From positions 17,579,764 through 17,643,763 of the forward strand of contig NC_088306.1 in NCBI RefSeq assembly GCF_032854445.1: a DNA stretch of 64,000 nt, in the 5' to 3' direction. The notes under the pieces are model-generated. The model saw only the letters and a list, made by a program, of their open reading frames with translations. It had not been told where the DNA came from and made no database searches. The position numbers and the translations under genes are program-made. The stretch comes from Liolophura sinensis (lineage: Eukaryota; Mollusca; Polyplacophora; Chitonida; Chitonidae). Positions 1 to 63,101 of the stretch are shown here, piece after piece (position 1 is the first letter of the stretch; the number at the start of each line of letters is the position of its first letter).

Positions 1-1757
1 ATAGGTGAACACACATCATTATACAGGTAATGCAATGATAGGTGGACAATACACATTATGCAGGTAATGTAATGATAGGTGAATGCACATCGTTATGCAA
101 GTGATGTAATGATAGGTGGACACACGTCGTTATGCAGGTGATGTAATGATAGGTGGACACACATCATTATACAGGTAATGTAATGATAGGTGAACACACA
201 TCATTATACAGGTGATGTAATGATAGGTGGACGCACATTGTTATGCAGGTAATGTAATGAGAGATGGACACACATCATTATGCAGGTAATGTAATGATAG
301 GTGGACACATATCATTATACAGGTAATGTAATGATAGGTGGACACACATCATTATACAGGCAATGTAATGATAGGTGAACATACATCATTACACAGGTAA
401 TGTAATGATAGATGGACACACATCATTACACAGGTAATGTAATGATAGATGGACACACATCATTACACAGGTAATGTAATGATAGGTGGACAAACATCAT
501 TATACAGGTAATGCAGTGATAGATGGACACACATCATTACACAGGTAGTGTAACGATAGGTGGACACACATCATTACACAGGTAGTGTAACAATAGGTGG
601 ACAATACACATTATTCAGGTAATGTAATGATAGGTGAATACACATCACTATGCAAGTGATGTAATGATAGGTGAATGCACATTGTTATGCAGGTAATGTA
701 ATGAGAGATGGACACACATCATTATGCAGGTAATGTAATGATAGGTGGACACATATCATTATACAGGTAATGTAATGATAGGTGAACATACATCATTACA
801 CAGGTAATGTAATGATAGATGGACACACATCATTACACAGGTAATGTAATGATAGATGGACACACATCATTACACAGGTAATGTAATGATAGGTGGACAA
901 ACATCATTACACAGGTAATGTAATGATAGGTGGACAAACATCATTATACAGGTAATGCAGTGATAGATGGACACACATCATTACACAGGTAGTGTAACGA
1001 TAGGTGGACACACATCGTTACACAAGTAGTGTAACAATAGGTGGACAATACACATTATTCAGGTAATGTAATGATAGGTGAATGCACATCACTATGCAAG
1101 TGATGTAATGATAGGTGGACACACATCGTTATGCAAGTGATGTAATGATAGGTGAACACACATCGTTATGCAGGTGATGTAATGATAGGTGGACACACAT
1201 CATTATACAGGTAATGTAATGATAGGTGAACAAACATCATTATACAGGTAATGTAATGAGAGGTGGACACACATCATCATGCAGGTAATGTAATGATAGG
1301 TGGACACACATCATTATACAGGTAATGTAATGATAGGTGGACACACATCATTATACAGGCAATGTAATGATAGGTGAACATACATCATTACACAGGTAAT
1401 GTAATGATAGATGGACACACATCATTACACAGGTAATGTAATGATAGATGGACACACATCATTACACAGGTAATGTAATGATAGGTGGACAAACATCATT
1501 ACACAGGTAGTGTAACAATAGGTGGACACACATCATTACACGGGTAGTGTAACAATAGGTGGACACACATCGTTATGCAGGTGATGTTATGATAGGTGGA
1601 CACACATCCGTATACAGGTGATGTAATGAGAGATGGACACACATCGTTATGCAGGTAATGTAATGATAGGTGAACACACGTCATTATGCAGGTAATGTAA
1701 TGATAGATGGACACACATCATTATACAGGTAATGTAATGATAGGTGTACACACATAT
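1..1757 (+). repeat. 37-bp minisatellite containing an ATG3 5' splice site (copy 1)
   Basis: About 47 units of GTGGACACACATCATTATAC + AG|GTAATGTAATGATAG. Read in frame the first part is VDTHHYT followed by a CAG|GTAATG donor. The same segment in vertebrate ATG3 is WVDTYHNT, located exactly where the missing upstream exon should end. Its phase also fits: ACA G joins AT TCC of the exon at 1846. The array runs off the left edge of the window. Many unit variants occur (TTATACAG, TTACACAG, TTATGCAG), and longer multi-unit blocks repeat. Confidence 0.95.
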
Positions 1758-1901: not shown

Positions 1902-4900
1902 GTAAGTGAGTGATTGTGAAGTTATGTTTTATTGGCATTTGGCCATTTGTTTTACAATATCATGGTGCTGTTGACTACATTATTGGTTAAATGCGATGAA
2001 ATATTTAACAAGTATGGTCAGACTTGTCAGATTGAGTTCATACATTGTAACATGTACACATAACTTTGTTTTAATGTTAACATTAGAGATGGTTGCACAT
2101 TCAACCCCAAAATTTTGGAGAAGCTTAATGAGTAATGTTGTGTAGAAGCTCTGTGTTTCATATGTACATGGCTTTCTTGTTGTCTTTGGTAACTCATTGA
2201 CTGTAAGAGTTCAGTGGCTATGATAATACATATAGTATGCTGTCCTCTCTGAAAACTCACGTGTCTGTTAATATGTGTAGTGTGTTATACCTGCAGTGTG
2301 TTATACTCTGTTGGAGCCTCCTCCATCTGCAGTTCATACAGGAGACCAGTGGCTGTGTTAATATGTGTAGTGTGTTATACTCTGTAAGGGCCTGCTCCAG
2401 CTGTGGTTCGTACAGGAGCCCAGTGGCTGTGTTAATGTGTGTAGTGTGTTATACTCTGTAGGAGACTGCTCCAGCTGTGGTTCTTACAGGAGCCCAGTGG
2501 CTGTGTTAATATGTATAGTCTGTTATACTCTATAGGAGTCTGCTCCATCTGCAGTTCGTGCAGGAGCCCAGTTTCTGTGTTAATATGTGCAGTATGTTAT
2601 ACTCTGTAGGGGCCTACTTCATCTGCCATTCGTGCAGGAGCCCAGTTTCTGTGTTAATATGTGCAGTATGTTATACTGTGTAGGGGCCTACTTCATCTGC
2701 CATTCGTGCAGGAACCCAGTGACTGTGTTCATATGTGTAGTGTGTTATACGTGCAGTGTGTTATACTCTGCAGGGGCCTGCTCCATATGCGGTTTGTGCA
2801 GGAGCCCAGTGTCTGTGTTAATATGTGCACTGTGTTATAGTCTGTATGAGCCTGCTCCAGCTACGGTCCTTACAGGAGCCCCGTGTCTATGTTAACATGT
2901 GTGGTGTGTTGTACTCTGTAGGAGCCTGCTCCAGCTGCCGGTCCTGCAGGAGCGCAGGAGGATGATGAAGATGATGATGAGGAAGCTGAGGACATGGAGG
3001 CGTTTGAGGAGAGTGGCATGTTAGAGGAAGAGGACAATGTAAGTTGTTGTGGAAACGCCTCTGAACAAATGATGTCAGACACACATTTATCAATGTTTAT
3101 AATAGATAACCATTATCACAGCCTCACATCAGTTGTCTCGTGAGAATATGCAAACCTGTTTTTTTTTATTATGTGAAATGGCTCTGCCTGTGGATCGATC
3201 TTGGATGTGCAATCACTGATTTATATCTCCGTGCTGTTAGGAACCATGGCTTTTTCTGGTTTATGTGGCTTAAGCGTTGTTTTTGCTAGAGCAGGTTGAC
3301 CCCTTGACCTTTGAGGTCATAGGTTTTAGCCCTGCCCCATTGTTGTTATTTCAAGTCACAAGGTTTGTATACCTGGCAAGGTGATGTGGTTTCCACCACC
3401 CATAAATCTGTAAATTAAATATTCTTGATAACACCTTTAAACTCAATTAAAATGAATAAACATTTAGTTTACTTTAATAAAATTTTGTAAAACAATTCTT
3501 TGTTTTCCTCGCAACTATTTTTCATACATGACAAATCAGGAAATTGACTATTGCAGGCAACAGTAGATATCAAGAAGACTGGGGGTGCAGATTCAGAAGG
3601 AGCTTGTGCGTCAGCGTCAGATAGTGGGATTATCCAAACACGGACATATGATCTGAATATTACTTACGATAAATATTACCAGACCCCACGACTCTGGCTG
3701 TATGGCTATGATGAGGTAAGATCACTGAAGAACTAGTAAGTATGCAGTCTGTAAAATACATGTATGTTAAAAAATGGTTTGCTGTATGTATCTAGAACTT
3801 GTACAGTGTGTATACGCTAAATGACCATATATTTTGTCCATTTTTTTCTGATTCTGAGAGTTCTACCAATTTTAGAAAGGTGTTTTGAGTTTGCTTCGAA
3901 CGTGGAATGGTATTCTGCTGGAAAATTGTAAGTATCAGTACCAAAAATAACATTTTTTGACAGTGGGGAACTCGGAAGACTTCTTCCCACCTGTGTCAGG
4001 ACGAATTCAAAGCTGTGAACTCATGCGTTCTTTTATTACATCACAATTATCGATGTATGTGTACTCATGAAACATATATCAAGTACACCACATGCACTGC
4101 AACGTCACAGAAGGCAACGATGCGTTCTGCTGTCATATGGACCTTAGTTTGTCCTCCTATATCCCTCGTATATTTACTTCTAAAAATGCACTTTTGTGGG
4201 CGAAATTTTAGATCATTTAGGTTATATGGAGTTGGTCAGTCCAGATGCTTGTCTTTCTTCATTTGCCAGGATACACCATGTTGTTGGGTGAATCCAGCTG
4301 CTAAATCTGACCCCCATATTATAAGCGAAAATTTCTTGGGTTTGGTGTTAAACAAGAGTAAAATAAACACATTAATCATATGTTTAGACTGTATGTTAAG
4401 AAACATGTTTTATTGGCTATGTTGATAAAATTACATATGAATATGCCATTTGATTTCACATGCAGAATGTAAATACTGTAAATGAATTAAAATTTTGTCC
4501 TAAAATGTTATGAAATATTCCATTGATACCAAAATGTAATTTTTTTTCAGTGGGATGTAATTCTACTTTCCAAACAAACTTCAAAACGTCTATCGCCACA
4601 ATATGGCTGAAATATTGCCGATGTGGCATTAAGCCATAATCATTCATTCATTCAAAACGTCTAAGATCAATAGAATTCTAAAAATCAGGGAAAAGCGATG
4701 TAGTCATGAACAAATTTTAGGTCATTTGCAGTATTAGAATGAAGTTGTTGTACATTTTTATCTGTGACACTTTTTGTAATCCGGCAGAACCGAAAGCCTT
4801 TGACAGTTGTACAGATGTTTGAAGATTTTAGTCAGGACCATGCCAAGAAGACTGTAACAATGGAGGCACATCCCCACTTACCGGGGCCACCCATAGCATC

Positions 4901-6997
4901 AGTTCATCCCTGCAAGTAAGGACTTCACAATATAGCTCTGAAGGGTTTATTTGATTGATGTTTTTTACGCCGTACTCAAGAATATTTCACTTACATGATG
5001 GGGGCCAGCATTATGGTGGGAGGAAAGCGGGAAGAGCTCAGGAGGAACCCTCAACCATCCGCAGGTTGCTGGCAGACCTTCCAACTTAAGGCCGGAGAGG
5101 AAGCCAGCATGAGCAAAACTAGAACTCACAGCAAGTGTTAAAGGTTTGAATGAAAGAAGGCAAAGGTGATTCTTATAGTACTATATATGAGATGATAAGA
5201 TGATTCTTATAGTACTCTCCAAAGAGTGTCTTGTTTGTCTGGTGTTTGTTACAGACATGCTGATGTGGTTTGCAAAGAGTGTCTTGTTTGTTTGATGTTT
5301 GTTACAGACATGCTGATGTGGTTGGCAAAGAGGGTCTTGTTTGTCTGATGTTTGTTGTGGACATGCTGATGTGGTTTGCAAAGAGTGTCTTGTTTGTCTG
5401 GTGTTGGTTGCAGATATGCTGGTGTGGTTTGCAAAGAGTGTTTGTTGCGGACATGCTGATGTGGTTTGCAAAGAATGTCTTGTTTGTGTGGTGTTTGTTG
5501 CAGACATGTTGGTGTGGTTTGCAAAGAGTGTCTTGTTTGTCTGATGTTTGTTTCAGACATGCTGATGTAGTTTGCAAAGAGTGTCTTGTTTGTGTGGTGT
5601 TTGTTGCAGACATGCTGATGTGGTTTGCAAAGAGTGTCTTGTTTGTCTGATGTTTGTTACAGACATGCTCGTATGGTTTGCACAGTGTGTTGTTTGTCTG
5701 ATGTTTGTTGCAGACATGCTTATGTGGTTTGCAAAGAGTGTCTTGTTTGTCTGATGTCTGTTACAGACATGCTGATGTGGTTTGCAAAGAGTGTCTTGTT
5801 TGTTTGATGTTTGTTGCAGACATGCTGATGTCATGAAGAAGATCATAGAGACTGTAGCAGAGGGAGGAGGAGAGCTGGGTGTTCACATGTATCCTTTGCC
5901 TCTGCTGAAATAATGTAACTTCATACATTAATAGTCTTAAAACTGGTTCCTGGTTTTCACCCTTAAGGGAAAAGACCTCTAAAAATCGAAGTAGGCATCA
6001 CTGAATAGACCACTTAAAGCTATGCATAAATATGCTTTAATGTATTTTCTTATATTTTTGTGAAGAGAGTTAAAGGCGTTCAAACAGTTGAATTCTAAGG
6101 TAGGCTTTATAAACCATACTATCAGAGTTTACTCAGACGTCACAATAACTTTTTTCAATTCTAATCACAAAACTCAATGTTGGCATAACTCTTTTTACCC
6201 ATGAGTAAAAGGTTACTGTAAAGATTTCCCCAAAATTCCTTCCTTCTGGTGAACATCTGGAAACATGGTGAGGTGATGTCAGAGTTCCTAGATACAGGCA
6301 GTATGACTCATAAAGCCCTTTCCTTTTGCCTTTCAATACTCTTTTACTTTAAGTCACACAGGATGTGGGTTCAATCCTGTTCTTGGGCAGAGAATTTTCA
6401 AATTTCTCTGTTTTTTGTTGTTTTCGGGTCTTGGGTTGCATTGAATTCTTGAAGGTGCTGTCATTTGAGGTCTTGCATGAAGCTTATTGGAGATCAGTTG
6501 CATTTCAACAATATTTTTATTTATTTATTTTATTGGTGTTTAACTCCATGTTCAAGAATATTTCACTTATTTGACAGCAACCAGCTGGCTCATACAATTA
6601 AAATGCTGGCGTCCTACAACTGCCAAGCTTTAGACTCATTGAGGTCATGTTTATTAATCCAGATGCTTCCGTTATGGCTGCGTCTCAAAGTCCCGAGGTT
6701 TATCAGGTATCAGGTAAAGGGTGATAGGTTACCATACTCTAGCTTCCCCCATTAATCTGACCTCTGTCATATAAGTAATAAAATCCTGAGCACATGGCTA
6801 ATCAGGGGGTCAAAGAAATAAGTATTTAATATAAAAAGTACTGGTTTACCTGGAAATATTATGTTATAATGACCAGCATTATTGCAGTGAACTTTCCTTG
6901 ACGCCATTTCTTCAGGTACCTGATGATATTCCTCAAGTTTGTGCAAGCCGTCATTCCAACAATAGAGTATGATTACACGCGGCATTTTACCATGTGA
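1846..6997 (+). CDS. ATG3: ATG3 autophagy E2-like enzyme, 3' six exons (copy 1, partial gene)
   Basis: ATG3 is the E2-like enzyme that carries ATG8/LC3/GABARAP on a cysteine thioester and transfers it to phosphatidylethanolamine on the phagophore. Six exons join in phase: 1846-1901, 2922-3038, 3557-3715, 4788-4915, 5820-5888 and 6916-6997 (611 nt, about 202 residues plus stop). Visible ATG3 hallmarks are the acidic flexible region ending EAFEESGML, the block [19 protein letters not shown], the active-site stretch SVHPC (the E2-like HPC cysteine), [19 protein letters not shown], and the C-terminus YDYTRHFTM followed by TGA. All introns are GT-AG. The N-terminal exons, which carry the membrane-sensing helix, lie left of the window. 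Introns hold SINE pieces and three minisatellites, each spanning a splice junction. Assignment to ATG3 is very secure from known family sequence; exon edges follow phase and splice consensus. Confidence 0.96.
2268..2921 (+). repeat. 75-bp minisatellite containing the 3' splice site of the ATG3 acidic exon (copy 1)
   Basis: Roughly nine units. Each contains TACTCTGTAG|GAGCCTGCTC followed by CAGCTGTGGTTCGTACAGGA and GCCCAG, which is the acceptor and about 35 exon bases of 2922-3038 with a few changes, then intron sequence. The array ends exactly at the real exon. Confidence 0.95.
2922..3038 (+). CDS. ATG3: ATG3 copy 1 acidic-loop exon
   Basis: It encodes 39 residues: a short Ala/Pro-rich start ([12 protein letters not shown]), an Asp/Glu run, then [17 protein letters not shown], matching the acidic flexible region of ATG3 that binds the E1 ATG7. 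The acceptor CTCTGTAG|GAGCCT is chosen because it alone keeps phase 0. The nearby CCTGCAG|GAGCG would break the frame. The 75-bp array directly upstream repeats this same acceptor and about 35 bases of this exon. Confidence 0.9.
3557..3715 (+). CDS. ATG3: ATG3 copy 1 exon with [17 protein letters not shown]
   Basis: Fifty-three whole codons, phase 0 to 0. The acceptor is CTATTGCAG and the donor GAG|GTAAGA. It encodes the core E2-fold segment [20 protein letters not shown] plus YGYDE, which is almost invariant in animal ATG3. Confidence 0.95.
3860..4290. repeat. Dispersed repeat also seen at 55990-56150
   Basis: Shared words: GAGTTCT.CCAAT.TTAGAAA, TTTGAGTTT, AGTATCAGTACCAAAA versus AGTTTCAGCACCAAAA, CTAAAAATGCACTTTTG versus CTAAAATGCACATTTTA, GCGAAATTTTAG. 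Block 2 has it at about 15435-15860. The 136-codon open frames over it (4015-4425 and 15589-15999) are not recognised as genes. Confidence 0.55.
4585..4655 (-). mobile_element. Short SINE tail with target-site duplication (ATG3 intron, copy 1)
   Basis: Sequence GCCACAATATGGCTGAAATA through CATTCATTCATTC is flanked on both sides by TTCAAAACGTCTA. The same tail in the opposite orientation occurs at 33833-33900. The second block has it at about 16165-16235. Confidence 0.75.
4788..4915 (+). CDS. ATG3: ATG3 copy 1 active-site exon (HPC)
   Basis: It encodes [20 protein letters not shown], then [23 protein letters not shown]. The cysteine of HPC is the thioester-forming residue of the family and is encoded by the last whole codon before the donor TGCAA|GTAAGG (phase 2 exit). 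The following intron ends in the 53-bp array. Confidence 0.95.
4945..5137 (-). mobile_element. tRNA-derived SINE (family 1) in ATG3 intron, copy 1
   Basis: Reverse-oriented element with TTTATTTGATTG tail, CGTACTCAAGAATATTTCAC, then AACCATCCGCAGGTTGCTGG and GAAGCCAGCATGAG. The tRNA-like head is truncated. Confidence 0.85.
5212..5819 (+). repeat. 53-bp minisatellite containing the 3' splice site of the ATG3 HADVMKK exon (copy 1)
   Basis: About eleven units of ACATGCTGATGTGGTTTGCA, AAGAGTGTCTTGTTTGTCTG, ATGTTTGTTGCAG. Each unit ends in TTTGTT(G/A)CAG and starts with ACATGCTGATGT, the first 12 bases of the exon at 5820. The last unit merges into the true exon. Units are 53 bp, so frame rotates each unit and creates long but meaningless open frames. 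Confidence 0.96.
5820..5888 (+). CDS. ATG3: ATG3 copy 1 exon [22 protein letters not shown]
   Basis: It enters in phase 2 (A completes the Lys codon after HPC) and leaves in phase 2. The acceptor TTTGTTGCAG|ACATGCTGATG is the last of about a dozen near-identical copies in the tandem array upstream. The donor CACAT|GTATCC is weak apart from GT but is required by phase and by homology. Confidence 0.93.
6515..6590 (-). mobile_element. SINE family 1, tail fragment (copy 1)
   Basis: TTTATTTATTTATTTTATTG then CATGTTCAAGAATATTTCAC; only the 3' end of the element is present, in an ATG3 intron. Confidence 0.7.
6916..6997 (+). CDS. ATG3: ATG3 copy 1 terminal exon
   Basis: The acceptor is TTTCTTCAG. 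It encodes [20 protein letters not shown] then TRHFTM and TGA. The FTM end is the conserved C-terminus of ATG3. A possible AATAAA lies at 7836-7841, but it is not kept in the second copy, so the polyadenylation site is not settled. Confidence 0.95.
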
Positions 6998-7349
6998 CCT
7001 ACCTGTTGTTTGTCTAACCTTAGGGTGAGGGGTTAAGGATAATGTACATTGTGTCATGTAAATTGCAAATATATGATTATATAACATGTACAGTGACTTG
7101 AAGTATAGGCTATTTAAAAATATGTATTGGATACTCTGTTAGAAAATATGTCAGAGCTGTTAACGTTCAATACCTTTAATTCGATAAGTGTTATCAGTAA
7201 CACCGAGACATCTTGTGAAGGACTACTTTTAATCGTGATTTAATCATTGAAATTTGTGCAAAGGTAAATGTATGGAAGCTGAAATGGAAATCTGCAAATG
7301 CCCCTCATCAAAATGACTGAATAGCAATTTAGGGATTCTTTTGTCACTG

Positions 7350-7643
7350 AAGGTAAAAACAGTCCTCCTGTATCATGTGACTGGTGAAAAATATTAGGAC
7401 TTTGGTGATATCAATTTACCAATCACTTGTCTCACAGTAGCCCAGAAGCACAAACGACACTTCTTTCTTGTAGAAACTTTTCAATTTCACAAACGTTCAG
7501 CTGCTAAGTTTTCTTCTTTGTTTGTCTACTCTGAATAACTATCTGTGAAACTTTTTTCAGATGTCCATATTATAATATATGTGATCCTGTATGAGATGCC
7601 TTGCAGGTCACATAATACAGTATGACTCTTTTTACCTTTAGCT
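7350..7643. mobile_element. MITE with ~30-bp terminal inverted repeats (copy 1)
   Basis: Left end AGGTAAAAACAGTCCTCCTG + TATCATGTGAC pairs with the right end, whose reverse complement reads AGGTAAAAAGAGTCATACTG + TATTATGTGAC. No coding capacity. Confidence 0.8.
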
Positions 7644-10551: not shown

Positions 10552-10554
10552 ATA

Positions 10555-12414: not shown

Positions 12415-13308
12415 ACACATCATTACACAGGTAATGCAATGATAGATGGACACACATCATTACACAGGTAATGTAATGATAGGTGGACAAACATCATTAT
12501 ACAGGTAATGCAGTGATAGGTGGACACACATCATTACACAGGTATTGTATCGATAAGTGGACACACATCATTACACAGGTAGTGTAACAATAGGTGGACA
12601 ATACACATTATGCAGGTAATATAATGATAGGTGAATGCACATCACTATGCAAGTGATGTAATGATAGGTGGACACACATCGTTATGCAAGTGATGTAATG
12701 ATAGGTGGACACACATCGTTATGCAGGTGATGTAATGATAGGTGGACACGCATCATTATACAGGTAATGTAATGATAGGTGAACACACATCATTATACAG
12801 GTGATGTAATGATAGGTGGACGCACATCATTATGCAGGTAATGTGATGATAGGTGGACACACATCATTATACGGGTAATGTAATGATAGGTGGACACACA
12901 TCATTATACAGGCAATGTAATGATAGGTGAACATACATCATTACACAGGTAATGTAATGATAGATGGACACACATCATTACACAGGTAATGTAATGATAG
13001 ATGGACACACATCATTACACAGGTAATGTAATGATGGTGGACAAACATCATTACACAGGTAGTGTAACAATAGGTGGACACACATCGTTACACAGGTAAT
13101 GTAACAATAGGTGGACACACATCGTTATGCAGGTGATGTAATGATAGGTGGACACACATCCGTATACAGGTGATGTAATGATAGATGGACACACATCGTC
13201 ATGCAGGTAATGTAATGATAGGTGAACACACGTCATTATGCAGGTAATGTAATGATAGATGGACACACATCATTATACAGGTAATGTAATGATAGGTGGA
13301 CACACATA
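12415..13308 (+). repeat. 37-bp minisatellite (copy 2 of the 1-1757 array)
   Basis: Same unit and orientation as 1-1757, starting directly at the end of the N gap. About 24 units are visible; the left part is lost in the gap. Confidence 0.95.
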
Positions 13309-13462: not shown

Positions 13463-16400
13463 GTAAGTGAGTGATTGTGAAGTTATGTTTTATTGGCATT
13501 TGGCCATTTGTTTTACAATATCATGGTGCTGTTGACTACATTATTGGTTAAATGTGATGAAATATTTAACAAGTATGGTCAGACTTGTCAGATTGAGTTC
13601 ATACATTGTAACATTTACACATAACTTTGTTTTAATGTTAAGATTAGAGATGGTTGCACATTCAACCCCAAAATGATAATACATATAGCATGCTGTCCTC
13701 TCTGAAAACTCAGTGTCTGTTAATATGTGTAGTGTGTTATACCTGCAGTGTGTTATACTCTGTTGGAGCCTGCTCCATCTGCAGTTCATACAGGAGACCA
13801 GTGGCTGTGTTAATATGTGTAGTGTGTTATACTCTGTAAGGGCCTGCTCCAGCTGTGGTTCGTACAGGAGCCCAGTGGCTGTGTTAATGTGTGTAGTGTG
13901 TTATACTCTGTAGGAGACTGCTCCAGCTGTGGTTCTTACAGGAGACCAGTGGCTGTGTTAATATATGTAGTGTGTTATACTCTGTAAGGGCCTGCTCCAG
14001 CTGTGGTTTGTACAGGAGCCCAGTGGCTGTGTTAATATGTGTAGTGTGTTATACTCTGTAGGAGACTGCTCCTTCTGTGGTTCTTACAGGAGCCCAGTGG
14101 CTGTGTTAATATGTGAAGTGTGTTATACTCTGTAGGAGCCTGCTCCATCTGTGGTTCGTGCAGGAGCCCAGTGGCTGTGTTAATATGTATAGTCTGTTAT
14201 ACTCTATAGGAGTCTGCTCCATCTGCTGTTCGTGCAGGAGCCCAGTTTCTGTGTTAATATGTGCAGTATGTTATACTCTGTAGGGGCCTACTTCATCTGC
14301 CATTCGTGCAGGAACCCAGTGGCTGTGTTCATATGTGTAGTGTGTTATACTCTGCAGGGGCCTGCTCCATATGCGGTTTGTGCAGGAGCCCAGTGTCTGT
14401 GTTAATATGTGCACTGTGTTATAGTCTGTATGAGCCTGCTCCAGCTACGGTCCTTGCAGGAGCCTCGTGTCTATGTTAACATGTGTGGTGTGTTGTACTC
14501 TGTAGGAGCCTGCTCCAGCTGCCGGTCCTGCAGGAGTGCAGGAGGATGATGAAGACGATGATGAGGAAGCTGAGGACATGGAGGCGTTTGAGGAGAGTGG
14601 CATGTTAGAGGAAGAGGACAATGTAAGTTGTTGTGGAAATGCCTCTGAACAAATGACGTCAATCAATGTTTATAATAGATAACCATTATCACAGCCTCAC
14701 ATCAGTTGTCTCGTGAGAATATGCAAACCTGTTTTGTTTTTTTTATTTGAAATTGTTCTGCCTGTGGATCGATCTTGGATGTGCAATCACTGATTTATAT
14801 CTCTGTGCTATTAGGAACCATGGCTTTTTCTGGTTTATGTGGCTTAAGCTTTGTTTTTGCTAGAGCAGGTTGACCCCTTGACCTTTGAGGTCATAGATTT
14901 TAGCCCTGCCCCATTGTTGTTATTTCAAGTCACAAGGTTTGTATACCTGGCAAGGTGATGTGGTTTCCACCACCCATAAATCTGTAAATTAAATATTCTT
15001 GATTACACCTTTAAACTCCAATCAAATGAATAAACATTTAGTTTACTTTAATAAAATTTTGTAAAATAATTCTTTGTTTTCCTCGCAACTATTTTTCATA
15101 AATGACAATTCAGGCAATTGACTATTGCAGGCAACAGTAGATATCAAGAAGACTGGGGGTGCAGATTCAGAAGGAGCTTGTGCGTCAGCGTCAGATAGTG
15201 GGATTATCCAAACACGGACATATGATCTGAATATTACTTATGATAAATATTACCAGACCCCACGACTCTGGCTGTATGGCTATGATGAGGTAAGATCACT
15301 GAAGAACTAGTAAGTATGCAGTCTGTAAAATACATGTATGTTAAAAAATGGTTTGCTGTATGTGTCTAGAACTTGTACAGTGTGTATACGCTAAATGACC
15401 ATATATTTTGTCGATTTTTTTCTGATTCTGAGAGTTCTACCAATTTTAGAAAGGTGTTTTGAGTTTGCTTCGAACGTGAAATGGTATTCTGCTGGAAAAT
15501 TGTAAGTATCAGTACCAAAAATAACATTTTGTGACAGTGGGGAACTCGGAAGACTTCTTCCCACCTGTATCAGGACGAATTCAAAGCTGTGAACTCATGC
15601 GTTCTTTTATTACATCACAATTATCGATGTATGTGTACTCGTGAAACATATATCAAGTACACCACATGCACTGCAACGTCACAGAAGGCAACGATGCGTT
15701 CTGCTGTCATATGGACCTTAGTTTGTCCTCCTATATCCCTCGTATATTTACTTCTAAAAATGCACTTTTGTGGGCGAAATTTTAGATCATGTAGGGTATA
15801 TGGAGTTGGTCAGTCCAGATGTTTGTCTTTCTTCATTTGCCAGGATACACCAGGTTGTTGGGTGAATCCAGCTGCTAAATCTGACCCCCATATTATAAGC
15901 GAAAATTTCTTGGGTTTGGTGTTAAACAAGAGTAAAATAAACACATTAATCATATGTTTAGACTGTATGTTAAGAAACATGTTTTATTGGCTATGTTGAT
16001 AAAATTACATATGAATATGCCATTTGATTTCACATGCAGAATGTAAATACTGTAAATGAATTAAAATTTTGTCCTAAATGTTATGAAATATTCCATTGAT
16101 ACCAAAATGTAATTTTTTTTCAGTGGGATATAATTCTACTTTCCAAACAAACTTCAAAACGTCTATCGCCACGATATGGCTGAAATATTGCCGATGTGGC
16201 ATTAAGCCATAATCATTCATTCATTCAAAACGTCTAAGATCAATAGAATTCTAAAAATCAGGGAAAAGCGATGTAGTCATGAACAAATTTTAGGTCATTT
16301 GCAGTATTAGAATGAAGTTGTTGTACATTTTTATCTGTGACACTTTTTGTAATCCGGCAGAACCGAAAGCCTTTGACAGTTGTACAGATGTTTGAAGATT

Positions 16401-18721
16401 TTAGTCAGGACCATGCCAAGAAGACTGTAACAATGGAGGCACATCCCCACTTACCGGGGCCACCCATAGCATCAGTTCATCCCTGCAAGTAAGGACTTCA
16501 CAATATACATGTAGCTCTGAAGGTTTGATTTATTTATTTGATTGATGTTTTTTACGCCGTACTCAAGAATATTTCACTTACATGATGGGGGCCAGCATTA
16601 TGGTGGGAGGAAAGCGGGAAGAGCTCAGGGGGAACCCTCAACCATCCGCAGGTTGCTGGCAGACCTTCCAACTTACGGCCGGAGAGGAAGCCAGCATGAG
16701 GAAAACTAGAACTCACAGCAAGTGTTAAAGGCTTGAATGAAAGAAGGCAAAGGTGATTCTTATAGTACTATATATGAGATGATAAGATGATTCTTATAGT
16801 ACTCTCCAAGAGACATGCTGATGTGGTTTGCAAAGAGTGTCTTGTTTGTTTGATGTTTGTTACAGACATGCTTATGTGGTTGGCAAAGAGTGTCTTGTTT
16901 GTCTGATGTTTGTTGCGGACATGCTGATGTGGTTTGCAAAGAGTGTCTTGTTTGTCTGGTGTTGGTTGCAGATATGCTGGTGTGGTTTGCAAAGAGTGTT
17001 TGTTGCGGACATGCTGATGTGGTTTGCAAAGAGTGTCTTGTTTGTCTGGTGTTTGTTGCAGACATGTTGGTGTGGTTTGCAAAGAGTGTCTTGTTTGTCT
17101 GATGTTTGTTTCAGACATGCTGATGTAGTTTGCAAAGAGTGTCTTGTTTGTGTGGTGTTTGTTGCAGACATGCTGATGTGGTTTGCAAAGAGTGTCTTGT
17201 TTGTCTGATGTTTGTTACAGACATGCTGATATGGTTTGCACAGTGTGTTGTTTGTCTGATGTTTGTTGCAGACATGCTGATGTGGTTTGCAAAGAGTGTC
17301 TTGTTTGTCTGATGTCTGTTACAGACATGCTGATGTGGTTTGCAAAGAGTGTCTTGTTTGTTTGATGTTTGTTGCAGACAGGCTGATGTGGTTTGCAAAG
17401 AGTGTCTTGTTTGTTTGATGTTTGTTGCAGACATGCTGATGTCATGAAGAAGATCATAGAGACTGTAGCAGAGGGAGGAGGAGAGCTGGGTGTTCACATG
17501 TATCCTTTGCCTCTGCTGAAATAATGTAACTTCATACATTAATAGTCTTAAAACTGGTTCCTGGTTTTCACCCTTAAGGGAAAAGACCTCTAAAAATCGA
17601 AGTAGGCATCACTGAATAGACCACTTAAAGCTATGCATAAATATGCTTTAATGTATTTTCTTATATTTTTGTGAAGAGAGTTAAAGGCGTTCAAACAGTT
17701 GAATTCTAAGGTAGGCTTTATAGACCATACTATCAGAGTTTACTCAGACGTCACAATAATTTTTTTCAATTCTAATCACAAAACTCAATGTTGGCATAAC
17801 TCTTTTTACCCATGAGTAAAAGGTTACTGTAAAGATTTCCCTAAAATTCCTTCCTTCTGGTGAACATCTGGAAAAATGGTGAGGTGATGTCAGAGTTCCT
17901 AGATACAGTCAGTATGACTCATGAAGCCCACCATAGTATTCAAATATCTGAATGCCTTTCAATACTCTTAAAAAATTCTGAAAAAATAAATGAAAATATT
18001 CTCACGCATAGTTTTCAATTGTCTGTGTGCTGAACCATACTTCATATTTTAGCTTTCTTTTACTTTAAGTCACACAGGATGTGGGTTCAATCCTGTTCTT
18101 GGGCAGAGAATTTTCAAATTTATCTGTTTATTGTTGTTTCCGGGTCTTGGGTGGCATTGAATTCTCGAAGGTGCTGTCATTTGAGATCTTGCATGAAGCT
18201 TATTGGAGATCAGTTGCATTTCAACAATATTTTAATTTATTTATGTATTTATTTTATTGGTATTTAACTCCATGTTCAAGAATATTTCACTTATTTGATA
18301 GCAACCAGCTGGCTCATACGATTAAAATGCTGGCGTCCTACAACTGCCAAGCTTTAGACTCATTGAGGTCATGTTTATTAATCCAGATGCTTCCGTTATG
18401 GCTGCGTCTCTAAGTCCCGAGGTTTATCAGGTATCAGGTAAAGGGTGATAGGTTACCATACTCTAGCTTCCCCCATTAATCTGACCTCTGTCATATAAGT
18501 AATAAAATCCTGAGCACATGGCTAATCAGGGGGTCAAAGAAATAAGTATTTAATATAAAAAGTACTGGTTTACCTGGAAATATTATGTTATAATGACCAG
18601 CATTATTGCAGTGAACTTTCCTTGACGCCATTTCTTCAGGTACCTGATGATATTCCTCAAGTTTGTGCAAGCCGTCATTCCAACAATAGAGTATGATTAC
18701 ACGCGGCATTTTACCATGTGA
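13407..18721 (+). CDS. ATG3: ATG3, 3' six exons (copy 2: probable second haplotype or tandem duplicate)
   Basis: The same six exons recur in the same order and phase: 13407-13462, 14506-14622, 15131-15289, 16361-16488, 17431-17499 and 18640-18721. Every splice site and the reading frame are intact. The only amino-acid change I noticed is Ala to Val in the Ala/Pro-rich start of the acidic exon (PAGAQ to PAGVQ). The first five exons of the gene are not present between the copies unless they fall in the 200-N gap. That favours an allelic (haplotig) duplication in the assembly over a functional second gene, but a real duplication is not excluded. Confidence 0.93.
13722..14505 (+). repeat. 75-bp minisatellite containing a 3' splice site (copy 2)
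   Basis: Same array in the second block, about one to two units longer than copy 1, so unit number differs between the copies. Confidence 0.95.
14506..14622 (+). CDS. ATG3: ATG3 copy 2 acidic-loop exon
   Basis: Thirty-nine codons, phase 0 to 0, acceptor CTCTGTAG. It differs from copy 1 by one missense change (GCG to GTG, Ala to Val) and a synonymous GAT/GAC. Confidence 0.9.
15131..15289 (+). CDS. ATG3: ATG3 copy 2 exon with [17 protein letters not shown]
   Basis: The protein is identical to the copy 1 exon. One synonymous difference is visible (TAC/TAT in the TYDK segment). Confidence 0.95.
16160..16235 (-). mobile_element. Short SINE tail with target-site duplication (ATG3 intron, copy 2)
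   Basis: Same insertion as 4585-4655 with the same flanking AAAACGTCT repeats. Confidence 0.75.
16361..16488 (+). CDS. ATG3: ATG3 copy 2 active-site exon (HPC)
   Basis: The sequence matches copy 1 throughout, including the HPC cysteine codon and the donor GTAAGG. Confidence 0.95.
16525..16724 (-). mobile_element. tRNA-derived SINE (family 1) in ATG3 intron, copy 2
   Basis: Same insertion as 4945-5137, with a slightly longer TTTATTTATTTG tail. Confidence 0.85.
16806..17430 (+). repeat. 53-bp minisatellite containing a 3' splice site (copy 2)
   Basis: Same array as 5212-5819 with a slightly different number and order of variant units, ending at the exon at 17431. Confidence 0.96.
17431..17499 (+). 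CDS. ATG3: ATG3 copy 2 exon [22 protein letters not shown]
   Basis: Identical to copy 1, preceded by the second copy of the 53-bp splice-acceptor array. Confidence 0.93.
18232..18310 (-). mobile_element. SINE family 1, tail fragment (copy 2)
   Basis: Equivalent of 6515-6590 in the second block. Confidence 0.7.
18640..18721 (+). CDS. ATG3: ATG3 copy 2 terminal exon
   Basis: Identical to the copy 1 terminal exon, ending TRHFTM and TGA. Confidence 0.95.
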
Positions 18722-48285: not shown

Positions 48286-48289
48286 CAAG

Positions 48290-51740: not shown

Positions 51741-54700
51741 CTGGAACAAAAAAAAAAGGGAAAATTTACCTTCATAGAGTTGAAATAACACTGACAAGCC
51801 ATGACTTATTCACCACATATAAACTTTTTAAATGACTGAATTACTTCGCGCCCCATGAGGATCACAAAACTATCTTAGACTTATGTCAGAATTTGTCTTA
51901 ACTTTAAAACAGTTTATTGGACTAAAATCATGACACACCTAAAGGATGTTTATTTCAATACTAAGTTTTGAAATAAACTTACTACAAATTAAGACTACAA
52001 ATTAAGACTAACTTACGTCTAAGACAGCTTTTTTATCCTGGGAACTGGAGGACAACATCAACCTCTTTAATTAAGAGCTCATTAAAAACAATAAGAATAT
52101 GATTTTTATTCCATTTAAGTCAAATTCCATTTGATCAAAAATCTTTTCTTCGTGGTGAATAAATTGATCTTAATTTATCGGTTCATTTCATACCATATTC
52201 AAGAATATTTCATGTTGATCTGTTTAACTGGGGTTTTAAGCCGTACTCAAGAATATTTCACTTATACGACGGAGGCTAGCATTATGGTGGGCATGGTGGG
52301 AGGAAAACAGGCAGAACCCATGACCATCTGCAGGTTGCTGACAGACCTTCTCACCTGCGGCTGGAGAGGAAGCCAGCATGGACTCCACTTGAACTCACAG
52401 CAACCACAGTGGCGAGAGGCTGCGGGGTCACTGTGCACAGTAATCACCTCAGCCACGGAGGCCACCTATTTCACTCTTAGGATGGTCTGACAACTGTCTT
52501 ATGGCTGGTGGGTGGTTTGTGGGAGTGAAGCCTGCAGAACTTGTAACATACATCACACAGCCTAGCAATCTCCGCAGTGAAACCAGCCTGATTCAAACAC
52601 ATGATTCTTAAAGAAAACAGTGTCGACCGGGCTTTTCCATCATTCATGCTGATCAGTATGTACTTATCTACACTTGGTCAATTACTACATGCTTCGGTCA
52701 TCATGACCAGCAGTCATTAGGGGTGTGCATGTGTACTGTGGCTTCTTGTGGAAGGGTGGATCCACGCTGCCATTGAAGAAGACACTATGAGGGCATGGCC
52801 ACCCTATGCTGACACCGGGACTATCAGTCCTGTTTCCTCACTCCAGCATTTCATTGCTGATCACCAAGCAAGGCAACAACGAGGATCAGTTTGTATACAG
52901 ACCTGCATAAATGTGTGGCAATGGAGAGTCGCAGGATCGGTCACAATCTCCTTGAACAGGTCCATGAGTTCAGAGAAGTTTTTGGAGGCCAGGATTCTCT
53001 CTTTGTTCAACATGATCAGCGCCACTGCCACACGGAATAAGATTTTTGATCCCTCAAAAAACAAGCAATCCCAGATCCTGAGTACTGTCTGAAATCAGAG
53101 ATAGACACCCTGTGTTGACAGTGCTTGTTTTTATGTCATACTTTGAAACAATTTTTCAGTCACATCACGATGAGGAATCATTACATGTGTGTATGTATAC
53201 TGTGGCAGGGCCAGTCCATGACACCACTAAAGTATCATGTCGAAGACACCAGATAAGACACCCCATCCAGTCACAATATACTGGCACTGGGCTAACCAGT
53301 TCTCTTTCCAGGCTCTAACCTATTAAAAACTTCTTTCAACAGGAGAGTTAAAACATCTCAGTGTGGAGGTATAACTAACCTCAGAAGACAGGTAAAAGAG
53401 ATGAAAATGACATCAGTGGGAGGCAAACCAGAGCTTAGAAAAGAGGTAAAGGTGACCTCAGCAGGGAGGTAAACTAACCTAAGAAGGCAGGTAAAGAAAT
53501 GAAAATGACCTCAGCGGGAGGCAAACCAGAGCTTAGTAGAGGTAAAGGTGACCTCATTAGGGAGGTAAAACTGACCTCAGAAGGCAGGTAAAAGAGATGA
53601 AAATGGCCTCAGTGGGCAGCAAACCAGAGCTCAGTAGAGAGGTAAAGTTGACCTCAGTAGGAAGGTAAAACCTAAGAAGGCAGGTAAAAGAGATGAAAAT
53701 GACTTCAGTGGGAGGCAAACCAGAGCTCAGTAGAGAGGTAAAGGTGACCTCAGTAGGGAGGTAAAACTGACCTCAGAAGACAGGTAAAAAAGATGAAAAT
53801 GACTTCATTGGGAGGCAAACCAGAGCCCAGAAGAGAGGTAAAGGTGACCTCAGTGGGGAGGTAAAACTGACCTCAGAAGACAGGTAAAAGAGATGAAAAT
53901 GACTTCAGTGGGAGGCAAACCAGAGCTCAGAAGAGAGGTAGTGACCTCAGTGGGGAGGTAAAATTCACTTTAGTGGGAAGATAAAACAGATCTTAATCGG
54001 CGCATGTAGGTAAAATGTATGTCACTCTGGAGGTAAAACTGACCTTGATAGGGAGGTAAATCTGACCTTAGTGGGAAGGTAAAACTGACCTCAGTGGGAA
54101 GATAAAACCGACCTCCACAGGGCAGTAAATCTGACCTCAGTGGAAAGGTAAAACCGATCACAACGGGTGGGTAAAATGTATGTCACTCTGGAAGTAAATC
54201 AGGCCTCAGAGGGGAGGTAAAACTGACCTTAATAGGGAGGTAAATCTGACCTTAGTGGGAAGGTAAAACTGACCTCAGTGGGAAGATAAAACTGACCTCC
54301 ACAGGGTAGTAAATCTGACCTCAGTGGAAAGGTAAAAACGATCACAATGGGTGGGTAAAATTTATGCCATTATGGAGGTAAATCAGGCCTCAGAGGGGAG
54401 GTAAAACCAGCCTCAGTAGGAAGGAAAAATGTACCTCAGTGGGGAGGTAAATCTGATCTCAGTGGGGAGGTAAACCTGGCCTCAGTAGGAAGGAAAAATG
54501 TGCCTCAGTGGGGAGGTAAATCTGACCTCAGTGTGGAGGTAAACCTGGCCTCAGTGGGGAGGTAAACCTGGCCTCAGTAAGAAAGTAAAACTGACTTCAC
54601 TGGGGAGATAAAATATAGCATCAACAGGGAGGTAAAACTTACCTCAGTAGGGAGCACATCGGCGTACAGGCAAATGAACCACTTCATGCCGACCAGCGTC

Positions 54701-60700: not shown

Positions 60701-63101
60701 AGGAGTCTGCACATCCAAAATTCAGCGCTCTGCCACCAAGGTGTTTCCATATGCAGTTTTAATAGTCCTTCCCCTTAAGGCTTAAGGGTGGAGAAAACAT
60801 AAAAATGACATGAACTTCAGATGAAAAAGTGCAAAAAGTTATCCGTAAATGTGGTCTTCAATATTTTTTCCAATTTTTCCATAAGGAGAAAAAAAAGACA
60901 CTTGAAAATAATTTTTGTATGGTGGGTATTTGGGACCATCTTTTGGTATTTATAGTCTTTGTTTAATAACGTCATAAAAGAGGATCTAACACAGGTTTAA
61001 TAAATATTTTTGCATTAGAATTTGTTCTTTTCAGCTAACAAATGTATTAAACCTCAATTTAGATCATATTTATATCTTAATACGCTCATAAATATTATCA
61101 TAATTTAGGTTAAATGCATATGTTTGGATATAAACAACAGATTTACATTCACATAAATTCATTAGACAAGCATCACATCCTTATTTAGAACATTATTATG
61201 CAACAACGATAAATAGTAAAAGTTGGTCCCAAATACCCACCATACAAAAATATTTTGAAATACACCTCCCCCCCCCACACCCCCCCCCCCCCCCCGTCTT
61301 TTTTTTTACCCTTAGCCTTTTGAAATACCCTGAAAAAAGCCCCAAAATATTAAAGATCATAGTAGCAAATAAGTTTTGACCCTCTTTCATCTGATTTTGG
61401 CATCATTTTTATGTTTTCTTCTCCTTTCTACTCACCCAGGTTGATAGTCTCCAGAAGTGCTGAGTCCTTAGCCTCTGACACCAGCCTAGGGTAGAGACCT
61501 GGGTTAGTCTGCCTCCTGTCCTCTGCCCCACTCACACACATCCATACCTGGGGATACAGAGATACACTCAGTATTATTGCACAGTCAAAGTCACACACAT
61601 CCATACCTGGGGATACAGAGAAACACTCAGTAATTTTGCACAGTCCCACTCACAGACAACCACATTTGGGCTGCACAGCCAAAGTCACACACATCCACAC
61701 CTGGGGATACAGAGATACACTCAGTAATTTTGCACAGTCCCACTCACAGACAACCACATCTGGGCTGCACAGCCAAAGTCACACACATCCACACCTGGGG
61801 ATACAGAGATATACTCAGTAATAATGCACAGCCCAAGTCACACACATCCACACCTGAGGATACAGAGATACACTCAGTAATACTGCACAGCCCAAGTCAC
61901 ACACATCCACACCTGGGGATACAGAGATACACTCAGTATTATTGCACAGCCCAAGTCACACACATCCACACCTGGGGATACAGAGATACACTCAGTATTA
62001 TTGCACAGCACAAGTCACACACATCCGCACCTGGGGATACAGAGATACACTCAGTATTATTGCACAGCCCAAGTCACACACATCCACACCTGGGGATACA
62101 GAGATACACTCAGTAATTTTGCACAGTCCCACTCAGGCAACCACATCTGGGCTGCATAGCCAAAGTCACGTGCATCCACACTTGGGGATACAGAGATACA
62201 CTCAGTATTATTGCACAGCCCAAGTCACACACATCCACACCTGGGGATACAGAGATACACTTAGTAATACTGCACAGTCCCACTCACAGACAAACGTGGG
62301 GATACAGAGATACACTCAGTAACACTGCACAGCCTTAGTCACACACATCCACACCTGGGGATACAGAGATACACTCAGTAATACTGCACAGTCCCACTCA
62401 CAGACAAAGAAACTTGGGGATACAGGGATACACTCAGTAATACTGCACAGTTGTGACAATTTACAATATTTAGACAGCAATATGAAATACATGCAGTTTT
62501 ATTATTCTAGCCAAGTTCTGTCAGAACTATTGTTGAACAAATCAAATGTCAACAATTAAAATTTTAACAGCGTTAGCATACAGTATTAAAGTGTGTTGAT
62601 CCACCAATAAGCTCAGCATAATGCAAAAGCATAGATACTCTGAAAAAACTGAGAAGTCACATATTTGTAGTTTCAATATTTGGACAAAATTTTATTTGTC
62701 ATCTTCATGATCCTGAAGATGACAATTAAAATTTTGTCGAAATATTGTAATGTCAAATATGCGACTTCTCAGTTTTTTCGAAGCATCTATGCTTTTGCAT
62801 TATGCTTAGCATATTAAATTGTGAAACTTTTGTACTTCACCTTAATACTTATATTATAATGTACTGAATGTAATATTATATAATCTGTATTTGCCACAAA
62901 AAATCCCCCCCCCCCTCCCCTCCTCAAAACACTGCTTAGATCTACAGAGCTCTTACACAATGAGCAACTTTGTCATGGATGAAATTTTAGGTAAAACTCA
63001 GTAAAAGTACATGTACCTAACCAAAATGTAGGTCTAACCACAAAGGAAACTTACAGAAGCTCTGTGCTCTGATGGAATGCCTTTCCGACAAAACCGCTTC
63101 A
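51648..63101 (-). CDS. GRTP1: GRTP1/TBC1D6-like TBC-domain Rab GTPase-activating protein, 3' eight exons (5' end outside window)
   Basis: TBC proteins stimulate GTP hydrolysis on Rab GTPases with an Arg and a Gln finger. Exons in transcript order are 63101-63055, 61547-61436, 60625-60498, 57241-57145, 56770-56707, 54751-54643, 53088-52903 and 51740-51648. They total 836 nt in one consistent frame, giving about 278 residues of the C-terminal part. Diagnostic segments are KRFCRKGIPSEHRA, VWMCVSGAEDRR, DIHRTFPENIYF (Arg finger in the IxxDxxRT motif), GYCQ (Gln finger), GLNFITGMLLL, VFWLMDTLI, WTLVGMKWFICLYADVLPTE and TVLRIWDCLFFEGSKILFRV. Together they match the GRTP1 branch rather than larger multi-domain TBC proteins. 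The first exon or exons lie right of the window. Both catalytic fingers are intact, so an active GAP is expected; which Rab it acts on is not shown. Confidence 0.92.
52190..52464 (-). mobile_element. SINE family 1 in GRTP1 last intron, with duplicated tail piece
   Basis: Main element about 52215-52464, ending with head GCCACGGAGGCC on plus. A second partial copy of ATTCAAGAATATTTCA sits just before it at 52195-52212. Confidence 0.83.
52730..52893. mobile_element. SINE-like fragment beside a GRTP1 donor
   Basis: CTGATCACCAAGCAAGGCAA resembles CTGAACACCAAGCGAGGAAG inside 58136-58484. It ends about ten bases from the GRTP1 exon end at 52903. Confidence 0.45.
52903..53088 (-). CDS. GRTP1: GRTP1-like exon TVLRIWDCLFFEGSKILFRV
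   Basis: Sixty-two whole codons, phase 0 to 0. It continues ALIMLNKERILASKNFSELM and ends LHCHTFMQ. The acceptor is CTGATTTCAG and the donor CAG|GTCTGT. SINE-like pieces flank it closely on both sides. Confidence 0.92.
53110..53325 (-). mobile_element. SINE second family, diverged copy
   Basis: TTTTTCAGTCACATCACGAT and GAGGAATCATTACATGTG resemble the tail half of 58136-58484. It lies about 20 bp upstream of the GRTP1 exon at 52903-53088. Confidence 0.55.
53345..54642 (-). repeat. 23-bp minisatellite containing the 5' splice site of GRTP1 exon 54643-54751
   Basis: On minus the unit is TCCCCACTGAGGTCAGTTTT + ACC, against the true junction TCCCTACTGAG|GTAAGTTTTACC. About 55 units. The exon-distal part (53360-53960) is organised as a ~100-bp four-unit higher-order repeat with an AAAAGAGATGAAAATGA insert. 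Confidence 0.94.
54643..54751 (-). CDS. GRTP1: GRTP1-like exon with MKWFICLYADVLPTE
   Basis: Phase 2 to 0. It encodes KVPAVYAHMESQGVSWTLVG then MKWFICLYADVLPTE. The donor CCCTACTGAG|GTAAGTTTT is the seed of the 23-bp array that fills the following intron. Confidence 0.91.
55459..55725. mobile_element. Same MITE family as 7350-7643, opposite orientation, diverged
   Basis: It shares AAGGTAAAAAAAGTCCTACT, and on the reverse strand CACAAACGTTCA, TTGTTTGTCT and TCTGAATAA, in the same order as 7350-7643. Confidence 0.65.
55990..56150. repeat. Dispersed repeat related to 3860-4290
   Basis: See the shared words listed for 3860-4290; the orientation is the same. Confidence 0.5.
56150..56680. mobile_element. 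Long-inverted-repeat MITE, same family as 46935-47343 (GRTP1 intron)
   Basis: Left GTCAGATGAAATACCATTAA, AGAAAATAGTTTGATTTATA; the right end in reverse has GACAGATGAAAGAGCATTAA, GGAAAATAGTTTGATTTATT. Arms exceed 70 bp. Confidence 0.72.
56707..56770 (-). CDS. GRTP1: GRTP1-like exon DYYAPDMLVLQAEQEVLGKL
   Basis: Phase 1 to 2; acceptor GTTTCAG and donor GTCAA|GTAAGT. It corresponds to the DYYxPxMLGLKxDQEVLGELV segment of the family. Confidence 0.88.
56788..56880 (-). mobile_element. SINE family 1, degenerate fragment
   Basis: TTTATTTATTACTGGTGT then AAGGCCATACC and GGAGGAAACTGGGCAAGC; weak match to the tail half. Confidence 0.55.
57145..57241 (-). CDS. GRTP1: GRTP1-like exon GLNFITGMLLLIVRDDEKVF
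   Basis: Phase 0 to 1; acceptor TTCCTGCAG and donor CCTG|GTGAGT. It continues WLMDTLINNILP, a conserved hydrophobic helix pair of the TBC fold. Confidence 0.9.
57315..57570 (-). mobile_element. Full-length SINE (family 1) with perfect 13-bp target-site duplication in GRTP1 intron
   Basis: Head GGCCTCCGTGGCTCAGTCGG + TTAGCACGC on minus, B box GAGTTCAAGTCC, tail with TTTATTTATTTATTTG on plus. It is flanked by TTATTACATTTTG at 57303-57315 and 57571-57583. It is a probable recent insertion. Confidence 0.95.
58136..58484 (-). mobile_element. tRNA-derived SINE, second family, near full length
   Basis: On the minus strand it starts CCGTCCTGATAGCACAGTTG + GTAGAG (A box TAGCACAGTTGG). A tRNA-like region and a long body follow, ending with TTTAACGCCGTAC reversed and a GTGAGTGAG-type tail. 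It differs from family 1 apart from the GCCGTACT-like tail end. It sits in the GRTP1 intron next to the 121-bp array. Confidence 0.78.
58500..59900 (+). repeat. ~121-bp minisatellite with a GTCACGTGAC palindrome (GRTP1 intron)
   Basis: About 11 units with AGTAGAGTTGAGTCAGGTTT, TAAGCTCTCGTGTGTGCGAA, ATCTCCTCCAGTCATTATGT. GTCACGTGAC is exact at 58818, 58940, 59061, 59294, 59416, 59537 and 59659; others have CACATG or CATGTG. ATGCCTGTTAAT and ATGGTCTGTCAAT variants partly alternate, a dimeric tendency. Confidence 0.95.
60126..60312 (+). mobile_element. SINE family 1, head-truncated (GRTP1 intron)
   Basis: It starts at the B box region GTGAGTTCAAGTCC, then TCATGCTGGCTTCCTCTCCA, ending ATCAAATCAATAAATAAATC. 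Confidence 0.84.
60498..60625 (-). CDS. GRTP1: GRTP1-like exon with Arg and Gln fingers
   Basis: Phase 1 to 0. It encodes DIHRTFPENIYFAETDDPSG, then RKVLTALAHKNQRTGYCQ. Both catalytic TBC residues, Arg of HRTF and Gln of GYCQ, sit in this exon. The acceptor is ACTCTTGTAG and the donor CAG|GTGAGC. Confidence 0.92.
60783..61425. mobile_element. ~640-bp foldback element in GRTP1 intron
   Basis: Outer arms GGAGAAAACATAAAAATGA / TCATTTTTATGTTTTCTTCTCC and inner arms TTTGTATGGTGGGTATTTGG + GACCA / TGGTCCCAAATACCCACCATACAAA (split for length). The right end lies about ten bases from the donor of exon 61436-61547. C-rich homopolymer runs occur near 61266-61295. Confidence 0.78.
61436..61547 (-). CDS. 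GRTP1: GRTP1-like exon VWMCVSGAEDRR
   Basis: Phase 0 to 1. The acceptor TGTATCCCCAG|GTATGGATG is repeated in every unit of the 59-bp array upstream (61548-62455). The donor is CTGG|GTGAGT, followed within about ten bases by a foldback element. Confidence 0.9.
61548..62455 (-). repeat. 59-bp minisatellite containing the 3' splice site of GRTP1 exon 61436-61547
   Basis: On minus each unit has CTGTATCCCCAG|GTGTGGAT + GTGTGTGACTTGGGCTG, against the true junction CTGTATCCCCAG|GTATGGAT + GTGTGTGAGTGGGGCAG. About 15 units including shortened ones; the last merges with the exon. Confidence 0.96.
62615..62806. mobile_element. 192-bp near-perfect palindrome (hairpin MITE)
   Basis: Left arm AGCATAATGCAAAAGCATAG, ACTGAGAAGTC, CAATATTTGGACAAAATTTT; the right arm is its reverse complement with about ten mismatches, ending CTATGCTTTTGCATTATGCT. 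The centre is CTTCATGATCCTGAAG. Confidence 0.92.
63055..63101 (-). CDS. GRTP1: GRTP1-like exon KRFCRKGIPSEHRAS
   Basis: Phase 1 entry, phase 0 exit; acceptor CTCCTTTCCAG and donor TCT|GTAAGT. It is the start of the TBC domain (xRKGIPxxxR). It is the most upstream exon seen in the window. Confidence 0.85.

Follow-up and report, generated by a model that had tools for sequence, protein, structure and literature searches.

What places minisatellites across exon-intron junctions? The question is raised by a 64-kb stretch of the Liolophura sinensis genome, here called the window (C12:17579764-17643763; assembly of 609 Mb in 632 contigs). In this stretch the initial annotation described six tandem arrays, each built on the end of the adjacent exon and its splice site, with units of 37, 75, 53, 44, 23, and 59 bp. 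Tandem repeats were called over the window by TRF, which found all six, the second with a unit of 74 rather than 75 bp. Three of the arrays lie at 5' splice sites (donors) and three at 3' splice sites (acceptors), just as had been described. Their positions are collected in Table 1, together with arrays from other genes discussed below. The window also contains a short dispersed repeat with many occurrences (positions 4959 to 5141, 8011 to 8337, 42351 to 42563, and 57291 to 57488), which is found elsewhere as well.

Table 1. Arrays at or near splice junctions in the window and in sampled conserved genes of L. sinensis. Positions are those of the window unless marked as gene strand.
Gene	Unit (bp)	Position	Strand	Junction	Remarks	Basis
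ATG3 copy 1	37	1..1755	+	donor	~53 copies including stretch upstream of window	TRF, exon comparison, profile
ATG3 copy 1	74	2281..2957	+	acceptor	exon start 2922	TRF, exon comparison
ATG3 copy 1	53	5220..5831	+	acceptor	exon start 5820 (HADVMKK..)	TRF, exon comparison, PDB ATG3
ATG3 copy 2	37	12415..13307	+	donor	as copy 1; left side cut by 200-base N gap	TRF
ATG3 copy 2	74	13733..14536	+	acceptor	as copy 1	TRF
ATG3 copy 2	53	16811..17442	+	acceptor	as copy 1; exon start 17431	TRF
Presumed Ig-TIR receptor	44	30233..32547 (TRF 30233-32512)	-	donor	presumed exon end 32509, then gtatgt	TRF, open frame
GRTP1-like (TBC domain)	23	53357..54654	-	donor	exon end 54643	TRF, exon comparison
GRTP1-like	59	61525..62450	-	acceptor	exon start 61547	TRF, exon comparison, profile
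CCT5	109			donor		
CCT3	60 and 66			donors	two arrays	
CCT6	36			donor		
ACO1	164			donor		
MUT	86 and 32			donors	two arrays	
PYG	28			donor		
HSPA9	51			donor		
SDHA	70			acceptor		
CCT6 (L010)		gene strand 2389		near donor	array start	
CCT3 (L009)		gene strand 858		near donor	array start	
HSPA9 (L036)		gene strand 2021		near donor	array start	
CPS1 (L044-L047)		gene strand 31103		near donor	array start	

The donor units of the window combine an exon tail with the first bases of the intron. The 37-bp unit of ATG3 consists of 27 nt of exon tail (..GWVDTHHYAG) and 10 nt of intron bearing the 5' splice site. That array begins upstream of the window, at L003:3271, where its first 27 bases are ATG3 exon, and the exon ends at L003:3297. 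The 23-bp unit of the GRTP1-like gene consists of 12 nt of exon tail and 11 nt of intron bearing the 5' splice site. Acceptor units combine an intron end, including the 3' splice site, with an exon head: 38 and 36 nt in the 74-bp unit of ATG3, 41 and 12 nt in its 53-bp unit, and 36 and 23 nt in the 59-bp unit of the GRTP1-like gene.

The exon side of each junction was compared with the rest of its own array, with 300 shuffled exon ends as the control. For ATG3, 31 of 37 exon nt were identical in the 37-bp array and 29 of 35 in the 74-bp array, with no shuffle as good in either case, and all 12 junction-adjacent exon nt recurred in the 53-bp array (1 of 300 shuffles as good). For the GRTP1-like gene, 20 of 23 exon nt were identical in the 59-bp array (0 of 300), and all 12 junction-adjacent nt recurred in the 23-bp array; this last match was equaled by 13 of 300 shuffles and is short, but it is exact and abuts the junction. 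The presumed Ig-TIR gene gave 32 matches over 39 exon nt in a gapped comparison (0 of 300), and its array has a single decoy, that is, a copy away from the exon, that can be aligned to the diverged exon copy. Judged by exon identity and shuffles, five window arrays clearly carry the adjoining exon end with its splice site, as first described, and the case is weaker for the TIR array.

ATG3 exons matched Autophagy_act_C and ATG3 (human-type) in the PDB. The exon at the 37-bp junction gave no match when searched alone against the profile, but it continues the profile of its upstream neighbor, taking the match from 7.6e-9 for the upstream exon alone to 4.2e-16 for the two joined. Exons of the second gene matched the TBC domain, and inclusion of the exon at the 59-bp array raised the match from 28.7 to 35.1 bits; the name GRTP1 fits what we take to be the identity of this gene. 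For the third gene, the assignment as an Ig-TIR receptor did not hold up in the searches: neither of the two presumed TIR exons had a match in Pfam, NCBIfam, or PDB, and there was only a subthreshold Ig match, located elsewhere than those exons. The TIR junction is proposed from an open frame and a GT, making it the weakest of the six.

The ATG3 region (window 1 to 25700) is a tandem segmental duplication in which copy 2 starts at about 12415 and the two copies are 91 to 94% identical in their three longest blocks. Because of this duplication, the ATG3 arrays were counted once and copy 2 was left out. A 200-base N gap lies at 12215 to 12414, where the copies meet, and an assembly join is possible there. 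By TRF, the 74-bp array measures 804 bp in copy 2 versus 677 bp in copy 1, a comparison of two ATG3 duplicates in one individual.

The initial annotation knew of no named system of this type and attributed the pattern to a process in this lineage. The first statement was wrong and the second too restrictive, since amphioxus genes have the same structures, which were named mirages (PMC3087553, PMC3902484). In the portions of those papers available, Adh3 is cited as the gene of the original paper, PGBD5 and TnC are added as mirage genes (PMC3902484), and RT-PCR suggests regular splicing (PMC3087553). The shared features are a unit with an exon end and a splice site, occurrence at both 5' and 3' boundaries, gene-specific units, and the retention of AG or GT in many decoys; the unit lengths also overlap, at 10 to 160 bp in amphioxus, as far as described, and 23 to 164 bp in L. 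sinensis. On these structural features, we file the present arrays as mirages. The mollusc is thus a second phylum for a kind of array already named in amphioxus. The two cases differ in that the host here is a mollusc and not a chordate, and the arrays are known here from DNA alone, whereas RT-PCR is available there. Length instability among alleles and in the soma is a feature of the amphioxus mirages in the accounts available, while the counterpart here is just the two ATG3 duplicates of differing length. Compared with the amphioxus work as available, the present analysis adds a gene sample chosen regardless of arrays, a lean toward donors, and a check on how far the decoys have drifted.

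Among the reports found in the open-licence literature, mirages were described in amphioxus alone, and no report of junction-straddling arrays in molluscs was found. An intron of an abalone TSSK1-like gene has a polymorphic 27-bp minisatellite, the available text not stating whether it straddles a junction (PMC6905558). Repeats in introns are described for an earthworm metallothionein and for Conus, with no junction-straddling unit mentioned in the portions available (PMC12783039, PMC3862624). Human genes in segmental duplications have variable internal tandem repeats with an average unit of 30 bp (PMC2812944). These are likewise minisatellites at exon-intron boundaries, but the parts of that paper available concern primate paralogues of recent origin, where changes in repeat number alter gene structure and can create introns, whereas the genes described here are conserved.

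The sample consisted of genes elsewhere in the genome that were picked for conservation, regardless of arrays, with homology-based junctions. The window was the discovery set, and its arrays were excluded from the sample counts. Set 1 comprised eight CCT chaperonin genes, located with PF00118 and modelled against vertebrate CCT from PDB alignments with a spliced-alignment program. For set 2, E. coli homologues served to model ten genes, presumably GPI, SDHA, GLDC, ACO1, MUT, HSPA9, another HSP70, ATP5B, PYG, and HSP60, as we name them from homology. Set 3 comprised CPS1, CAD, and two HSP70 genes; the CPS1 and CAD models are less certain, at 43% identity to E. coli CarB. Arrays with a TRF score below 100, with a period below 10, or lying wholly within an exon were left out. 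One short doubtful segment-end exon was removed in each of CCT1, CCT3, and CCT8, the upstream donors being kept, and two short pieces of CCT7 were joined as one exon. A 27-bp SDHA exon and its preceding donor were left out of the count, as were both junctions of a CPS1 exon whose donor is GC; one such donor in CAD was retained. Among the loci from the DnaK search, four intron-bearing genes were used, leaving aside copies that lack introns and the weaker HSP70-like loci. ACO1 was picked before its repeat was noticed, the repeat being visible before the gene sequence was modelled, and the HSP60 arrays were listed along with those of the CCT genes, before HSP60 was modelled.

These searches also brought up other features. 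The CPS1-like gene on C4 (L044-L047 joined, gene strand 10654-21928) has, inside one modelled intron, a minisatellite whose 87-bp unit is repeated some 130 times over 11 kb. An HSP70 match at C1:28756500-28757417 lies within a 42745-aa "open frame" that is perhaps an N run read as open. Long intronless CCT-like open frames at C5:5566404-5568116 and C6:7942446-7943372 are perhaps retrocopies, and the hemocyanin C-terminal domain (PF14830), a molluscan family, has eight tandem matches on C8, in keeping with a mollusc genome.

In all, the sample held 22 genes, 438 junctions, and 54 arrays with a TRF score of at least 100. Ten of the 54 arrays, in 8 of the 22 genes, straddle a predicted junction, nine at 5' splice sites and one at a 3' splice site, and they include 19 to 97 exon nt. 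The pattern, as seen in these gene models, is not local to the window but recurs in the genome. Adding the window gives 12 donors, the weak TIR case included, versus 4 acceptors, so that both boundary types occur. Each pairing of the 16 units was scored against 60 shuffles, and 1 of the 120 beat the best shuffle by more than 4. The units are thus unrelated, and those of the window each match their own exon, which does not fit a mobile repeat or introner element; the initial annotation had likewise argued against one mobile repeat. In four further arrays with no counted exon sequence, the start lies 15 bp or less downstream of a donor (Table 1), and in two arrays, both in CPS1, the end lies 15 bp or less from an acceptor.

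Dense arrays and short introns would make some junction overlaps by chance alone, and the nulls disagree on whether this suffices. The null tried first, for the CCT genes only, placed whole present-day arrays at random; against the 4 straddling arrays observed, it expected 3.55 to 4.12 with exons avoided and 8.85 to 9.42 otherwise. Sliding whole arrays within their host introns (51 arrays) likewise expected 10.4, namely, 5.08 donors and 5.33 acceptors, versus the 10 observed. The outcome changes when arrays are collapsed and one unit is placed randomly in the gene, with intron or straddling positions allowed. This null expected 3.40 straddling arrays in the 22 genes (10 observed, P = 0.0013), 1.37 in the CCT set (4 observed, P = 0.037), and 1.63 in set 2 (6 observed, P = 0.0037). 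Sliding one unit within the host intron expected 2.09 for each end, or 4.18. We think that the one-unit nulls are the apt ones, because a unit must be copied from its own position, and an array that has no sequence in common with an exon cannot be shifted onto it. The whole-array view leaves no total excess, only an imbalance between donors and acceptors, and chance does not lead one to expect a 9:1 split. The assertion that the overlaps are hard to explain by chance therefore stands under the one-unit nulls and not under the whole-array nulls, and chance alone strikes us as an improbable account. Straddling units are also longer than those of intron-only arrays (median, 63 versus 36; P = 0.011), in agreement with what the one-unit model predicts. 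The idea that straddling arrays persist better, being cleaner or longer, received no support among the 10 straddling and 33 intron-only arrays (median match, 92 versus 89%, P = 0.84; length, P = 0.31).

The whole excess under random one-unit placement falls at donors, with 9 observed versus 1.70 expected (P = 2.5e-5), while acceptors numbered 1 versus 1.70. The lean toward donors (4:0) was noted in set 1 before set 2 was examined, and set 2 then gave 5 donors versus 0.81 expected (P = 0.0009) and 1 acceptor versus 0.81. With one unit sliding within the host intron, the nine donors had a P value of 0.00013. Donors could accordingly be real hot spots, at which something such as a stalled polymerase, an R-loop, or U1-bound nascent RNA, located at the 5' splice site or just downstream of it, promotes tandem duplication. 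The units themselves offer a hint in this direction: the nine sampled donor units include 5 to 89 intron nt, and six of them end just 5 to 13 nt into the intron, which may be a clue to the site of the first break, or chance. Against hot spots, the donor excess is borderline when whole arrays slide within their own introns (P = 0.056), and the donor-acceptor contrast taken alone is 9:1 (two-sided P = 0.02), or 12:4 with the window. The 11 arrays of set 3 include none that straddle a junction. Low-score repeats (TRF 40 to 99), regarded as possible young stages, yielded 0 of 53 straddling with at least 8 exon nt, a result that is uninformative, as just 0.34 straddlers (0.17 donors) were expected. 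Nor is the lean uniform, with three donors and three acceptors in the window. That 5' splice sites are favored over 3' splice sites is thus partly shown; that donors provoke duplication is possible rather than proven, and as an explanation of the arrays we regard hot spots as unlikely without being far-fetched. About equally unlikely is the broader proposal that animal minisatellites commonly originate at splice donors, with transcription or U1 binding at the 5' splice site provoking short tandem duplications that have one end just downstream, and with one process at work in two distant phyla, chordates (amphioxus) and molluscs.

What becomes of the splice sites in the other copies bears on a further explanation, that the repeated sites are functional, for example, in extra U1 binding or in the tuning of splicing. 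Many are intact: GT is kept in 78 of 96 decoys of the nine sampled donor arrays, in 50 of 52 decoys of the 37-bp ATG3 array, and in 29 of 37 of the 23-bp GRTP1-like array, and in the three acceptor arrays of the window AG is retained by 5 of 8, 9 of 11, and 10 of 13 decoys. These counts also mean that the splice site is not present in every unit, as had been asserted. Decoy sites are, however, kept no better than the rest of the unit, as identity to the exon-joined copy in the sampled donor arrays is 0.936 for positions +1 to +6, 0.940 for exon, and 0.932 for the remaining intron positions. For GT by itself the figure is 0.910 (188 bases), perhaps reflecting a mild loss of decoy GT, mainly through CCT6, the poorest with 11 of 22 intact. 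Decoys drift roughly like neutral DNA, with no clear sign of selective keeping or removal. Array length, moreover, differs between the ATG3 duplicates, and a function for the repeated sites appears very improbable. The ATG3 and GRTP1-like acceptor arrays have 6 to 11 intact AG sites, the last of which would have to be used, and a plain 5'-to-3' scan would not choose it, a point against the account that we prefer below. The 66-bp unit of CCT3 (L009, gene strand 7184-8038) is divisible by three in length, and one open frame runs through several of its copies (VPGGGATEMALAQVCRLVISLL..), so that splicing at the first decoy donors would make the protein longer and bring in no stop.

Our preferred account, which we hold to be probable as a whole, is that the arrays are mirages, minisatellites that arose when a short segment across an exon-intron junction was duplicated in tandem. 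The elements of this structure are shown by the gene models: the unit holds an exon end and a splice site, the exon-joined copy is predicted by homology to continue the protein, and the other copies fall within the modelled intron. A straddling duplication should be nearly harmless, as splicing would still use the copy adjoining the exon body and would remove the extra ones; under exon definition the shortest exon would win, so that the exon-joined copy would be chosen. The array would then grow and shrink by slippage or unequal exchange like other minisatellites; the arrays of the two ATG3 copies do differ in length. Decoy splice sites, as the identities above show, vary to much the same degree as the other parts of the unit. 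The same reasoning may account for the few acceptors. About 6 intron bases suffice to copy a 5' splice site whole, whereas a 3' splice site would need a pyrimidine tract and branch point too, and a partial copy would leave the old branch point beside the wrong AG, making harmless acceptor duplications fewer. The four acceptor units have 38, 41, 36, and 28 intron nt, which is long enough to hold a pyrimidine tract and possibly the branch point too. Such tolerance could explain the scarcity of acceptors but not the excess of donors under the one-unit null (9 versus 1.70).

Arrays of this structure could also be pictured as intermediates of intron gain through tandem duplication of an exon stretch bearing AG|GT, a route suggested for amphioxus globins (PMC3087553) and, in potato, reported for an RdRp gene (PMC4974935) in the portions of those papers available. 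The potato case is likewise a tandem duplication with splice-site potential, but there, as far as described, it made a new intron, and here the arrays lie at one end of an existing intron. All nine sampled donor arrays stop 178 to 2003 bp short of the acceptor, so no single unit supplied both ends of the intron, and these are not new introns. We find intron gain hardly credible for the present arrays and return to the straddling duplication as their probable beginning.

With many intact decoys beside the real site, the arrays pose the question of how the spliceosome chooses the right copy, and they may also mislead gene predictors. The donor bias, if upheld genome-wide, would suggest that the mutations arise through a process linked to transcription or splicing. 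The occurrence of mirages in 8 of 22 sampled conserved genes of L. sinensis suggests that they are a feature common to some distant animal genomes and offers a natural test bed.
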